NCBI GenBank assembly: GCA_015492245.1
Contig: WGFM01000001.1
Location: 1 to 53,504 of the forward strand
DNA from: Deltaproteobacteria bacterium
GTDB lineage: Bacteria > Desulfobacterota > GWC2-55-46 > DRQE01
Length of the DNA: 53,504 bases
Reading direction: 5' to 3'
The notes beneath the pieces were generated by a model. The model did no database searches. It saw nothing but the letters and a program-made list of their open reading frames with translations, and had not been told where the DNA came from. The translations under genes were made by a program, and so were the position numbers. Shown here one piece after another: positions 3,222 to 15,328 of the stretch (positions within the stretch are counted from its first letter, which is position 1; the number at the start of each line of letters is the position of its first letter).

Positions 3222-5708
3222 ATGGACTCAAAGAGTGAGAAGAGGGAAGTTCTGGAATCCGTGGCTCTTCCTGTTGCAGGGATGACCTGCTGGCGTTGTG
3301 CCCAGAAGCTGGAGGAGGCTCTCGAGGGTATGGCTGGTGTAGAGGAGGCCGTTGTCAACTTCAACCGCAGGGAGGCTTTTATCTCCTATGACCCCTCCAT
3401 GACATCCATCCGCCAATTCATAGATGCCATACGGAATGAGGGCTTCGAGCCCGGGGTGAGCTGTGCAACCATCGGCATAGAGGGCATACGCTGTGCCTCC
3501 TGCATAAACAAGATAGAGGAGGCTCTAAAGAGTTCTCCCGGGGTGGTGGAGGCCTCCGTAAATCCTGTTACAGGGGCTGCGCGTGTGGACTACATCCCTG
3601 AATTTGCCACCCTTGGGAAGATAGAGCGGGCGGTGGAAGACAGTGGTTACAGTGTGGTGAAAGTTCCCGAAGAGGTGCCCGAGGACAGAGAGCAGGCGGC
3701 AAGGCAACGAGAGTACGAAACCCTCATGAAAAAATTCTGGTTCAGCATCATCATTGGTATTCCAGTGATGGCACTTTCATATCCCGAATACATAGGTCTT
3801 GGAGAGCTTCTTCCAAGGGGAAGCACCTCGCTTCGCATCCTATGGGGGCTCATGGGTGTAATCACCCTCCCCATTCTTCTGTGGGCAGGCAGCCAGTTCT
3901 TCGTCGGGGCATGGAATGCCTTCAGGCATCGCTCGGCAGACATGCATACCCTCATAGCAATAGGCACCTCGTCGGCATGGATATACTCCACGGTGGCCGT
4001 TCTATTCCCAGGCATATTCCCACGGCCAGAACTGGCGGATGTGTTCTACGATGTAACGGCGATAGTCATAGCACTGGTGGACCTTGGCATGGCGCTGGAA
4101 CTCAAGGCACGAAGCCGCACCAACGAGGCGATAAAGAAGCTTATGAGTCTACAGGCACGGACCGCCAGGGTCATAAGGGATGGAGAAGAAAAGGACATAC
4201 CCGTCGAGGAGGTCCTCGTTGGGGATGTAATCATCGTCAGACCGGGCGAGAAGATTCCCGTGGACGGAGAGCTCATAGAGGGCTCTTCCGCCGTGGATGA
4301 GTCCATGGTAACGGGTGAGTCCATACCTGTTGAGAAGACAACCGGAGACGAGGTCATAGGTGCCACCATAAACAGGACCGGCACATTCAAGTTCAGGGCA
4401 TCCAAGGTTGGCAAGGACACCCTGCTCTCACAGATCATACGCATGGTTCAGGATGCCCAGGGCTCGAAGGCACCCATACAGCGGGTGGTGGATCAGGTGG
4501 CAGGATACTTCGTTCCAGCCGTCATAATAGTGGGCATACTGGCATTCATGGCGTGGTTTACCCTTGGTCCCGAGCCACAGCTGGTATATGCCGTGGTGGT
4601 CTTCGTGAGCGTTCTCATAATAGCCTGTCCATGTGCGCTTGGGCTCGCCACCCCGACGAGTCTTATGGTGGGTGTGGGCAAGGGAGCAGAAAACGGGATA
4701 CTCATAAAGAGTGGAGATGCCCTCCAGACCGCGCACAGGCTCGACACCATAGTGCTCGACAAGACAGGCACCATCACGAAGGGAAAGCCCTCTCTCACCG
4801 ATGTGATACCCCTTGGTACGGTATCGGAGGAAGACCTGCTGCGCCATGCAGCCTCCGTTGAGAGGGGTTCGGAGCATCCCCTTGGAGAGGCAATCGTAGA
4901 GGGTGCAAAGAGCAGAGGACTTGAACTCACCGAAGCAGAACAGTTCAGTGCCATCCCTGGCCACGGGGTCGAGGCACGCGTGGACGGCATAGAGGTCCTC
5001 CTTGGAAACTCAAAACTCATGCGCCAGAAAAAGATAGAGCTTGGAGCCGCAGCAGATGAGGCCGAAAGGCTGGCAGACGAGGGAAAGACCCCCATGTATG
5101 TTGCCCTGGATGGCAGCCTGGCAGGCATCGTAGCCGTTGCCGATACGGTCAAGGAAGACTCCCGTGATGCGGTAAGGGCACTCCGGAAGATCGGTCTCGA
5201 GGTGGTAATGATTACAGGAGACAACGAGCGTACCGCCCGCGCCATAGCCAGAGAGGTTGGCATAGAAAGGGTTCTGGCAGAGGTGCTGCCGGAGGACAAG
5301 GCACACCAGGTAAAGCTGCTTCAACTGGAGGGCAAGAAGGTAGCCATGGTGGGCGATGGCATAAACGATGCCCCTGCCCTTGCGCAGGCAGACATAGGGA
5401 TGGCAATAGGCACGGGCACGGATGTTGCCATAGAGGCTTCCGACATAACCCTCGTCAGGGGCAGTCTCAAGAAGGTGGTAATAGCCATAGGGCTCTCACG
5501 TGCCACCATGAGAAACATAAAGGAGAACCTCTTCGGTGCCTTCATATACAACGGGCTCGGAATCCCTGTTGCAGCAGGGCTGCTCTACCCCTTCTTCGGC
5601 GTGCTGCTCTCCCCCATCATAGCCGGAGCCGCCATGGCATTCAGCTCTGTAACGGTGGTAACGAATGCCAACCGCCTGCGCATGTGGAAACCACGGGAGG
5701 TCAGATGA
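3222..5708 (+). CDS. copA: Copper-translocating P1B-type ATPase CopA
   Basis: An 828-residue inner-membrane ATPase that exports Cu(I) from the cytoplasm. There are two N-terminal heavy-metal-associated domains, with GMTCWRC near residue 21 and GIRCASC near residue 90. Eight membrane helices follow, with the ion-binding CPC (IACPCALG, near 468), the phosphorylated Asp in DKTGTITKG (near 513), the SEHPLGEAI nucleotide-domain motif and the hinge GDGINDAPA (near 710). The C-terminal YN and MxxS signature residues of Cu(I) pumps are compatible. The start ATG has AGGAGA close upstream. Length is typical. It overlaps the cupredoxin gene by 4 bp (ATGA), so the two are translationally coupled. Specificity for copper rather than silver is inferred from the CPC motif and the neighbour. 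Confidence 0.96.
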
Positions 5709-6085
5709 TGCTTACGAAGATAATAGTAGACATTCTGGGTTTCATACTCATAGGGCTCGTTGCATGGTACTTCTGGTTCTCGAAAAAAGAGGGCAAGGCC
5801 GCAAGGGTTTCAGGTGGGGTGCAGGAGGCCCTCATAACCGTGAAGGGTGGATATACCCCCGATGTCATAATAGTCAAGGCAGGCAGGCCAGTCCGCCTGC
5901 TCTTTGAACGGCTCGAGTCATCCCCCTGCTCAGAGCGTGTCCTCTTCAAGGACTTCGACATCTCCAGGCTCCTTCCGGAAGGGGAAAGGGTTACGATAGA
6001 GTTCACACCAGAAAGGGCAGGCGAGTACGAGTTCACCTGCCAGATGGGCATGTACAGGGGCAGGCTCGTCGTAGAGAAAGGTTAG
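5705..6085 (+). CDS. Membrane-anchored cupredoxin-like protein
   Basis: About 126 residues: one N-terminal membrane helix (residues 5-24, [20 protein letters not shown]) and then a single cupredoxin-type beta sandwich facing the periplasm. Likely copper ligands are the Cys in SSPCSERV and the Cys/Met pair in CQMGMYRG near the C-terminus, the arrangement seen in cupredoxin_1/COG4633-type proteins that accompany copper ATPases. Two ATGs (5705 and 5708) share the site GGGAGGTC; the first overlaps the copA stop. Known relatives are poorly characterised. A role as copper acceptor or chaperone on the periplasmic side of CopA is inference from the operon. Confidence 0.82.
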
Positions 6086-6099
6086 ACAGGAGGTGGCCC

Positions 6100-8022
6100 G
6101 TGGCAGTAGACCCGGTATGCCACATGACCGTAAACGAGGAGCGCTCTGAGAAGGTCGAATACAGGGGCAGGGAGTACTACTTCTGTGGCAGGGGCTGTAG
6201 AGAAAGGTTCGAAAGGGCTCCCCAGAGATACACAGATAGAAAGACAACTGGCACCGGGGGGAAACGCTCGGTCGCCTACTTCTCGATGGAGATAGGGCTC
6301 GAGGCTGGCATGCCCACATACAGCGGGGGGCTCGGTGTGCTCGCAGGTGATACCATTCGTGCCGCCGCAGACCTTGGCGTTCCAATGGTGGCGGTAAGTC
6401 TTCTCTACAGGGGCGGATACTTCTACCAGAGGCTTGGTCCCGACGGGTGGCAGACCGAGGAACCGGTGCGCTGGGCAGTGGATGACTTCCTTGAGCCACA
6501 AGAAGAGCGTGCCGCAGTTACAATAGAGGGGCGCACAGTATGGCTCAGGGCATGGCGCTACGATGTCAGGGGCGTGGGAGGATATGTGGTGCCCGTCTAC
6601 TTTCTCGATACGGACCTTCCAGAGAACTCCGAACAGGACAGGACCCTAACACACTTTCTTTATGGTGGAGACCAGCGATACAGGCTCTGCCAGGAGGCGG
6701 TCCTCGGCATGGGTGGGGTGAGGATGCTTCGTGCCATGGGTTACGAAAAGATAAGGCGGTTTCACATGAACGAGGGCCACGCAGCACTTCTTACCCTTGA
6801 ACTGCTGGACGAAGAGGCGAACAGGGCCGGAAGAGCCTCCTTCAGCCGTGAGGACATCGAGGCAGTGAGGGCAAGGTGTGTCTTTACGACACACACGCCG
6901 GTTCCCGCAGGCCATGACCAGTTCCCCATGGAACTCGTGGAAAGGGTGCTCGGCTACCGTGAGGATCTGTCCCGGATGAAGGAACTCTTCTGTGTTGACT
7001 GCATGGAGCTTGTGGGCAGGAATGTGGCTCATCTCAAGGACTTCTCCGAGGTGAAGGACATCTTCGGTACCGGCGAGATGTTCAACATGACATACCTTGC
7101 CCTGAACCTGAGCAGATATGTAAATGGCGTGGCAAAGAAACATGGCGAGGTCTCAAGGCTCATGTTTGCGGGTTACACAATAGATGCCATAACAAACGGA
7201 GTGCACGCAGCCACATGGACATCAAAGCCCTTTGAGGCTCTCTACGACCGCTACATCCCGGGCTGGAGAAAGGACAACTTCAGCCTGAGATATGCACTCG
7301 GCATACCAAGAGGAGAGGTCTGGCTTGCCCACATGGAGGCCAAAAGAAGGCTCATCAACCGTGTCAACAGGGAGACCAACGCAGGCATGGATGTGGACGC
7401 CTTCACAATAGGCTTTGCCAGACGGGCCACCGCCTACAAGAGGGCAGACCTCGTATTCGATGATCCTGGAAGGCTCGAATCCATCTCGTCGAAAGCGGGT
7501 CCCCTCCAGATAGTCTTTGCTGGCAAGGCTCATCCCCATGACACAGGTGGCAAGGAGATAATAAAGCGCATCTTCGCCGTGAAGGACTCTCTCGGAGGCT
7601 CCGTGAAGGTGGCCTATCTGAGCAATTACGACCTCGAACTTGGAAGGATGATGACCTCTGGCGTGGACACATGGCTCAACACCCCGAAACCGCCGCTCGA
7701 GGCATCTGGCACGAGCGGGATGAAGGCAGCACTGAACGGCGTGCCGAGCCTGAGCATCCTCGATGGATGGTGGATCGAAGGCTGCATAGAGGGTGTTACG
7801 GGCTGGGCAATAGGCAGGAAGGTGGAAAACGAGGATGAGGACAATCGCTCGGAAGACGCAGCCTCCCTCTACGACAAGCTGGAACACACCATAATGCCCA
7901 TCTTCTATGGCGAACAGGAGAGATTCGTAAACACCATGGTTCACGCAATAGCCCTCAACGGCTCCTTCTTCAACACCCACAGGATGATGCAACAGTATGT
8001 GCTCAACGCCTATTTTCGTTGA
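6100..8022 (+). CDS. glgP: Alpha-glucan phosphorylase with N-terminal YHS metal-binding domain
   Basis: A 640-residue protein. Residues 1-45 are a YHS domain (DPVCHMTV, then [13 protein letters not shown]), a small Cys-rich module usually attached to copper ATPases. After a short linker, a complete short-type GT35 phosphorylase begins at [20 protein letters not shown]. The family signatures [10 protein letters not shown] and [10 protein letters not shown] are present, as is the pyridoxal-phosphate lysine region [14 protein letters not shown]. The enzyme releases glucose-1-phosphate from glycogen-like glucans in the cytoplasm. The start is GTG with the strong site AGGAGGT; it begins 14 bp after the cupredoxin gene and belongs to the same operon. 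Fusing a metal-binding module to a glucan phosphorylase is odd; whether metal regulates the enzyme is unknown. Confidence 0.9.
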
Positions 8023-8036
8023 AGGAGGAAGAGAAG

Positions 8037-8120
8037 ATGCACAGAGACCCTGCGTGCAACATGCCGGTCAGCAAGGAGGAAGCCCTCATACTGCTCCACC
8101 TCATACCCCGGCATCTTTGA
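8037..8120 (+). CDS. 27-residue YHS-like stub
   Basis: A short frame starts at ATG 8037 behind AAGGAGGAAGAGAAG, 14 bp after the phosphorylase stop. It encodes MHRDPACNMPVSKEEALILL and a few further residues. The opening D-P-x-C-x-M-x-V matches the start of YHS domains, including the one fused to the phosphorylase, but the second half with the C-x3-C part is missing. It could be a truncated gene or a real short metal-binding peptide; the good ribosome site argues that it is translated. Confidence 0.45.
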   Translation: MHRDPACNMPVSKEEALILLHLIPRHL

Positions 8121-14110: not shown

Positions 14111-15274
14111 TCAACAGGGCTCTTTCCTGCACCTGCACCACACACAGGTGCAATCCTCGGTATGGCAACCTTTGTCAACGAGCCTGCTCTTGAATCTCCA
14201 GCTCGCAACAGGAAAGAGAATCCTTTTCAGAAAAGAGGGGTTGTATTGTTTTCTCAGAAATTCGACAGGTTCCCCCTCTGCAAGTTTCTTTATGAAATGA
14301 TTATAGCCCCTGTTTCCGAGTCTTTCAAAGAGGAAGCGGTTTGCAAGGGATGTTCTGTGCATACCCACCAGTTCGTCTCTCAGTAGCGATACATACAACA
14401 GGGGGGCACTGGCACCACCTTCGATGATACTCCTTGCTGCAAGCCAGCCCGAAACAAAAGCATACCTCATTCCGAAACCCCAGAGGCAATCCTGGAATCC
14501 GGCCGCTTCACCGATGTAATATCTTCCGTTCTCATATACAGGCCTGCCGAAGAAGAAGTTGCCGTAGCCACCAAACTCCACCTCGTCGGTCATCCGAAGG
14601 GCGGGAAAGACCTTCCGGAAGGTCTCTACCGTTCGTTCGAAACATTGCCTCTCTGTTCTGAACTCTCTGAACATGCAGGTTGCCATGGTTCCCTTGCCTT
14701 TGTGGACAAGGAGATAGGCATAGCCCTTTGGGGCGAGGCTATCATCGAGTATGGCTGCGGCCTTATCTTCCATGGTGGTCTTGAAAACAAGTCCCCTGGC
14801 TATTGCATCTGCTGCCCTCGGGCCTATGCCGATGATGCCACCCTTCCCGAGTCTTTCCACCCTTGTGTTGAACACAACCCTGACCCCTGCCTCTCTGGCA
14901 ATCTCCAGGAGTCTCCTGTCCAGACAGGCCGGCCCGTCCCCCCTCTCGACGAGATAGAACATGGCTCTCTTCGAGTTCACAACGGTCCTGTTCAGATTGG
15001 CATCGAACACTTCGATTTCGTTGTATGGCCTCAGGATGAAATCCCTATGGGGTTCACCGTATATTCCGAGCCTTTCGAGCAGGACGGTTACATCCTCGAT
15101 AGAGCTCCAGTTCTCAAGTCCCTGAAAGTCCCCGTGGAACCTGTGCCCCACGGTTGGGCTCGCCTCGTAGACCCTTACACCGTAACCTGCCCTGGCAAGG
15201 TTTATGGCTGCCACCAGGCCCGCAGCACCGGCGCCAACCACCTCAATCTGCTTTTCACTCTGCTGTTCCCTCAC
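14111..15274 (-). CDS. FAD-dependent oxidoreductase, geranylgeranyl-reductase-like
   Basis: About 387 residues with an N-terminal dinucleotide-binding fold (VVGAGAAGLVAAINLARAGY, then VRVYEASPTVG). Later come IGIGPRAADAIARGLVF and the family-typical IGEAAGFQDCLWGFGMRYA, close to the FAD-contact block of geranylgeranyl reductases and related flavoproteins. The C-terminus carries a Cys cluster (CHTEDCTCVWCRC) that may bind metal or iron-sulfur. I chose GTG 15274 because AGGAAGG sits six bases upstream; an upstream GTG at 15295 has no site. It follows the secreted FixH-like gene and precedes the CcdA-like gene on the same strand, which suggests a shared redox task. The substrate is unknown. Confidence 0.8.
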   Translation of the reverse strand: MREQQSEKQIEVVGAGAAGLVAAINLARAGYGVRVYEASPTVGHRFHGDFQGLENWSSIEDVTVLLERLGIYGEPHRDFILRPYNEIEVFDANLNRTVVNSKRAMFYLVERGDGPACLDRRLLEIAREAGVRVVFNTRVERLGKGGIIGIGPRAADAIARGLVFKTTMEDKAAAILDDSLAPKGYAYLLVHKGKGTMATCMFREFRTERQCFERTVETFRKVFPALRMTDEVEFGGYGNFFFGRPVYENGRYYIGEAAGFQDCLWGFGMRYAFVSGWLAARSIIEGGASAPLLYVSLLRDELVGMHRTSLANRFLFERLGNRGYNHFIKKLAEGEPVEFLRKQYNPSFLKRILFPVASWRFKSRLVDKGCHTEDCTCVWCRCRKEPC

Positions 15275-15328
15275 TGGTATCCTTCCTGTTCCCACTGCCT
15301 GTGCCGTCGTGCTGCCTTCGTCGTCAGA

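Follow-up and report, generated by a model that had tools for sequence, protein, structure and literature searches.

Animal glycogen phosphorylases, members of the GT35 family, are regulated by Ser14 phosphorylation and by AMP, with the phosphorylation site borne on their N-terminal segment. In the adenylyl cyclase of Mycobacterium phlei, a YHS domain offers one Asp and three Cys residues proposed as metal ligands, and 1–10 µM copper stimulates the enzyme when this domain is present (PMC4626032). Here we describe a gene joining a YHS domain to a GT35 phosphorylase, located in the window, the whole 53,504-nucleotide stretch of DNA analysed. No description of a YHS-glycogen phosphorylase fusion was found in the literature searched, beyond which one may exist, and the fusions in cyanobacterial strains carry only the database name 'alpha-glucan family phosphorylase'.

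Architecture of the YHS-GT35 fusion

The fusion gene and its surroundings comprise the following features:

3222..5708, + strand: copA, a Cu-type P1B ATPase with two N-terminal HMA domains and a CPC motif (ACPCALG)
5705..6085, + strand: membrane-anchored cupredoxin (PF13473), its ATG overlapping the copA stop; a GTG at 5684 is an alternative start
6088..6093, + strand: Shine-Dalgarno-like AGGAGG upstream of the fusion gene, read directly from the sequence
6100..8022, + strand: YHS-GT35 fusion gene, a single uninterrupted frame of 640 aa with a GTG start
6106..6234, + strand: YHS domain, residues 3-45 of the fusion (Pfam PF04945), with predicted metal ligands D4, C7, C29 and C33
6235..6267, + strand: linker, residues 46-56, with partly low pLDDT and weaker constraint
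6271..8016, + strand: GT35 alpha-glucan phosphorylase domain, residues 58-639 (TIGR02094), with the PLP lysine K542 at 7723-7725
8037..8120, + strand: truncated start of a YHS-thioredoxin-reductase-like gene; the homologous gene is intact at this place in the relative G050 (L004)

The first-pass annotation had read the first 45 residues as a YHS module, and the Pfam match at residues 3-45 bears this out (57.6 bits; cut-off 30.3). A linker of ~11 residues connects it to a TIGR02094 match (NCBIfam, residues 58-639) of 563.8 bits against a cut-off of 191.7, covering model positions 1-599 of 600. The second half had been described as a full GT35 enzyme; the family assignment stands, but the domain is a short form of ~580 aa without the N- and C-terminal regions present in TIGR02094 enzymes of 850 aa. 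A separate YHS gene merely read into GT35 is ruled out by the one stop-free frame. Several genomes share the fusion and its gene order, and fusions also occur on multi-megabase contigs, which rules out an assembly chimera.

Alignment of 48 fused and unfused enzymes revealed invariant H265, N366, R442, K447, E534, T538 and K542 (fusion numbering), which alignment to rabbit glycogen phosphorylase matches to H377, N484, R569, K574, E672, T676 and K680 of that enzyme. A dead phosphorylase is ruled out by these intact catalytic residues. An AlphaFold model of the fusion built from this alignment (mean pLDDT 85.6, pTM 0.85) has a confident YHS part and low confidence at residues 48-53, and structure comparison with GT35 enzymes gives Z of about 33, placing it in the GT35 fold. 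The structural match starts at ~residue 47 of the model and at ~residues 64-74 of animal phosphorylases; in this model, the YHS domain occupies the position of their first ~65 residues. No other PF00343 phosphorylase was found in the window's genome (estimated 100% complete), which also encodes a glycogen-synthase-type GT5. The protein is a predicted glycogen/maltodextrin phosphorylase with an added, putatively metal-sensing N-terminal domain.

Gene order and a downstream remnant

The three genes copA, cupredoxin and fusion lie on the + strand, with 14 bp separating the cupredoxin from the fusion, and this order is common to the window, G019 (L022/L165) and G050 (L167). From spacing and strand we infer co-transcription, which the first-pass annotation had stated outright. 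A scan of the region for promoter- and terminator-like sites around the operon yielded counts no higher than in shuffled sequence.

Downstream of the fusion, a 27-codon frame at 8037-8120 starts MHRDPACNMPVSKEEA. Positions 8036-8088 show clear homology to the 5' end of a YHS-thioredoxin-reductase-like gene that lies downstream of the G050 fusion (score 69; shuffled sequences reached no more than 28), so the window's operon has probably lost a second YHS enzyme.

Other YHS architectures were observed in these surroundings. YHS fused to a thioredoxin-reductase-like flavoprotein (Pyr_redox_2) is present in similar neighbourhoods (L022 8882-9958, L095 435-1493 and L004 394-1497), and near GT35 genes YHS is joined either to a HisKA/HATPase histidine kinase or to a response regulator (L025 6040-6906, L028 4616-5488 and L180 14897-15547). 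With such different partners, YHS may serve more generally as a plug-in sensor of metals. Similar FAD-dependent oxidoreductases lie near the GT35/YHS region in the window (14111-15295) and in L095 (1512-2630), possibly as part of a shared gene set. The window's genome also encodes a second copper-type ATPase, with an N-terminal YHS and two HMA domains (L002, contig C12 near 157354).

Distribution and origins of the fusion

A 129-position profile spanning the junction separates fused genes (at least 164 bits) from unfused genes (at most 138 bits). Among sampled genomes, fused genes were detected in 4 of 297 from the window's phylum and in 5 of 63 from its class (window counted in both), in 13/296 Nitrospirota (the phylum of L090), 8/246 Planctomycetota (the phylum of L101) and 2/395 genomes of the phylum of L068 (Ignavibacteriales by title). 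Together with genomes reached through individual loci, such as L081 (Bacteroidetes) and L097 (Nitrospirae), the sampled ones make up 33 fused genomes of four phyla. Five cyanobacterial plasmid records, from Stanieria, Aulosira, Chroococcidiopsis and two Leptolyngbya boryana, also carry the fusion, and three of four fusion-bearing cyanobacterial plasmids were typed as conjugative. The suspicion in the first-pass annotation that related fusions may occur elsewhere is thereby confirmed, with YHS-GT35 fusions in at least five bacterial phyla, cyanobacterial plasmids included.

The main tree comprises 69 GT35 domains, with the plasmid copies placed on a separate quick tree. Fusions fall into two regions: one in which those of the window, G019, G025 and G030 lie amid mostly unfused enzymes, and a large group containing Nitrospirota, Planctomycetota, Bacteroidota and, on the quick tree, plasmid fusions. 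A single clade of all fusions is rejected (AU test, p = 2.5e-6), a result that taken alone is compatible with one early gain and many losses. Between the third Cys and the catalytic domain lie 22-25 residues in the window's group and 28-30 in the large group; L192, a planctomycetotal fusion outside the tree, has 25. Given the AU rejection and the differing linker lengths, the pairing of YHS and GT35 probably arose more than once, and both two or more fusions and one old fusion with several losses would fit the tree.

Several fused copies are interrupted or incomplete. An in-frame TAG splits the G025 gene within GT35 (L023 6352-6354), through sequencing error, pseudogenization or readthrough; broken or partial copies occur in Nitrospirota (L184 near 9818, L182 9677-10309 and L175 10439-11050), and G518 carries one whole and one partial copy ~1 kb apart.

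Conservation of the predicted metal site

The ligand set D4/C7/C29/C33 was assigned by analogy with the M. phlei cyclase (PMC4626032). The first-pass annotation had held a metal link to be unlikely if the YHS cysteines varied among fusions; they and the Asp are kept in every fusion read, comprising all 33 fused genes with N-termini read and four cyanobacterial sequences, subject to a mild bias because the profile itself was built from sequences bearing Asp and three Cys. The ligand pattern search also required these residues, yet it recovered every profile-chosen locus except L184, whose fusion, read by hand, has them too. Comparison of the window with G050 gives pN 0.15 and pS 0.74 for the YHS part and pN 0.26 and pS 0.41 for the linker; by this sequence measure, the YHS part is under purifying selection and the linker less so.

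Metal-gene neighbourhoods

Metal context, defined as P1B ATPases, cupredoxins, heavy-metal-type RND pumps or HMA proteins within 6 kb, surrounds 16/31 fused versus 7/64 unfused GT35 genes (Fisher p 5e-5, which overstates the case because the loci are related and comprise only 2-4 independent pairs, giving a kinship-corrected test no power). P1B ATPases alone lie within 6 kb of 7/31 fused and 3/64 unfused genes, and roughly one fusion in two lacks any metal gene within this distance. The first-pass annotation had asked whether fusions track with copA and had held a metal link unlikely if they were never near copper genes. The connection holds in a broader form: fusions often lie near copper or heavy-metal efflux genes, but copA itself is near a minority only. 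Around unfused GT35 copies in fusion-bearing genomes, metal-efflux genes were found in 0/11 regions, a control weakened by regions that are short or have no clear GT35 gene call (L207, L208 and L209).

The nature of the neighbours varies among lineages. Nitrospirota and Planctomycetota fusions adjoin heavy-metal-type RND pumps or P2-type ATPases, and in G345 (L081) and G794 (L186) a YHS-HMA-CopA gene and a cupredoxin lie ~5 kb or less from the fusion. The Stanieria and Chroococcidiopsis plasmid regions contain heavy-metal P-type ATPases and four-helix copper-binding proteins, with an additional multicopper oxidase in Stanieria; the Aulosira region contains cation ATPases and phytochelatin synthase, and the Leptolyngbya plasmid a cation ATPase, with a phosphoketolase adjoining the fusion. 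Unfused GT35 genes can adjoin copper ATPases as well (L066, L025 and L028), which means that the genomic link can exist without a fusion.

Further arrangements were noted in these regions. In L066 (3660-7746), a YHS-HMBD-CopA gene lies 23 bp 5' of an unfused short GT35. P2-type (Ca/Mg-like) ATPases often stand beside short GT35 genes, fused or not (L024, L030, L031, L035, L177, L183, L187, L193 and L203), and standalone YHS genes occur in fusion neighbourhoods.

A proposed copper switch and competing readings

As its likeliest role, to which we assign about an even chance, the YHS domain would, by analogy with the M. phlei cyclase, act as an N-terminal switch by which glycogen phosphorylase responds to copper. 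Binding of copper, or of some other thiophilic metal, through Asp4, Cys7, Cys29 and Cys33 would alter phosphorylase activity; since the domain sits where animal phosphorylases hold their regulatory segment, an allosteric switch is plausible. As copper rises, the CopA pump and the fusion protein would be produced jointly, and the most likely consequence of copper loading on YHS would be activated glycogen breakdown: the glucose-1-phosphate released would feed ATP production, on which P-type ATPases draw, and provide reducing power while the cell is poisoned. Least certain is the sign of the effect: activation is favoured because the gene sits with a pump and glycogen breakdown yields ATP and reducing power. 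The wider proposal, in which copper on the N-terminal YHS gates glycogen breakdown within copper resistance and the switch was gained at least twice, also on conjugative plasmids, is put forward tentatively, at somewhat less than even confidence.

That metal-loaded YHS halts glycogen breakdown, sparing reserves during poisoning, is distinctly improbable, as the gene lies with copA and is presumably copper-induced, and YHS with copper activates the M. phlei cyclase (PMC4626032); high copper nevertheless lowers glgP mRNA in Synechocystis (PMC4182526), so the sign is not to be presumed. We consider it unlikely that the YHS module has a structural or docking role, perhaps as a zinc-held fold, in which it tethers the phosphorylase to a partner such as CopA, another YHS protein or glycogen and senses no metal. 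Such a role would suit a domain found on many unrelated proteins, here also the thioredoxin-reductase-like flavoprotein, histidine kinase and response regulator; among solved structures, a phenol hydroxylase subunit is closest to it in sequence, and in a related hydroxylase the YHS domain was metal-free, with no function known for it (PMC4626032). YHS in other proteins could hold zinc or no metal, which may count against a metal switch. The docking reading accords poorly with the retention of Asp and three Cys everywhere, the recurrence of metal-efflux context, and the copper response of the sole biochemically tested YHS enzyme of such build (PMC4626032).

Were the domain instead a copper buffer or shield, protecting the enzyme or passing copper to CopA with catalysis unregulated, its location with copA and a cupredoxin and the standalone YHS genes in the same neighbourhoods would be accounted for; one site per 70-kDa enzyme would, however, be costly, and separate GT35 groups carry the fusion, making this role improbable. 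Accidental joining of a metal-island YHS gene to an adjoining GT35, persisting with no function, is highly improbable: standalone YHS and unfused GT35 genes are both found in metal islands and some fused copies are broken, but ligands are kept across phyla, the YHS part appears to be under purifying selection and there is more than one fused clade. Docking, buffering and chance fusion are each less well supported than the copper switch. The first-pass annotation had suggested a possible coupling of glycogen breakdown to metal stress through the domain; kept ligands and frequent metal context agree with this, and the coupling itself is an inference with one biochemical precedent, on a different enzyme (PMC4626032). 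The architecture is real and recurrent, and there is good indirect evidence for a metal role.

If the copper switch is true, a metal joins the known effectors of glycogen phosphorylase and energy supply becomes part of copper resistance. The recurrence of the fusion across several phyla and on metal-resistance plasmids hints at copper-dependent switching of glycogen use in some bacteria, and the fusion provides simple testable proteins, some from named cyanobacterial strains.

Comparison with known systems

Both halves of the fusion belong to known families. The M. phlei YHS adenylyl cyclase (MpAC, PMC4626032) shares with it an Asp and three Cys YHS, a short linker and a catalytic domain, and its YHS is a proposed copper sensor; MpAC is, however, a class III cyclase with a C-terminal YHS and measured copper activation, whereas the fusion is a GT35 enzyme with an N-terminal YHS, its response predicted from sequence. 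TIGR02094 phosphorylases such as that of Segatella copri (PDB 9L6I) share family, fold and catalytic residues, and the fusion is 34-38% identical to 9L6I over the aligned region; relative to these enzymes, the fusion is a short form that is missing ~100 N-terminal and ~150 C-terminal residues and has gained YHS. Animal glycogen phosphorylases, allosteric GT35 enzymes, share the catalytic fold at ~20% identity and are regulated through their N-terminal segment, in whose place the fusion has a predicted metal domain. YHS-HMA-CopA ATPases, one of which is encoded in the window's own genome (L002), share the YHS domain class and neighbourhoods, but carry YHS on a transporter, whereas the fusion carries it on a carbohydrate enzyme.
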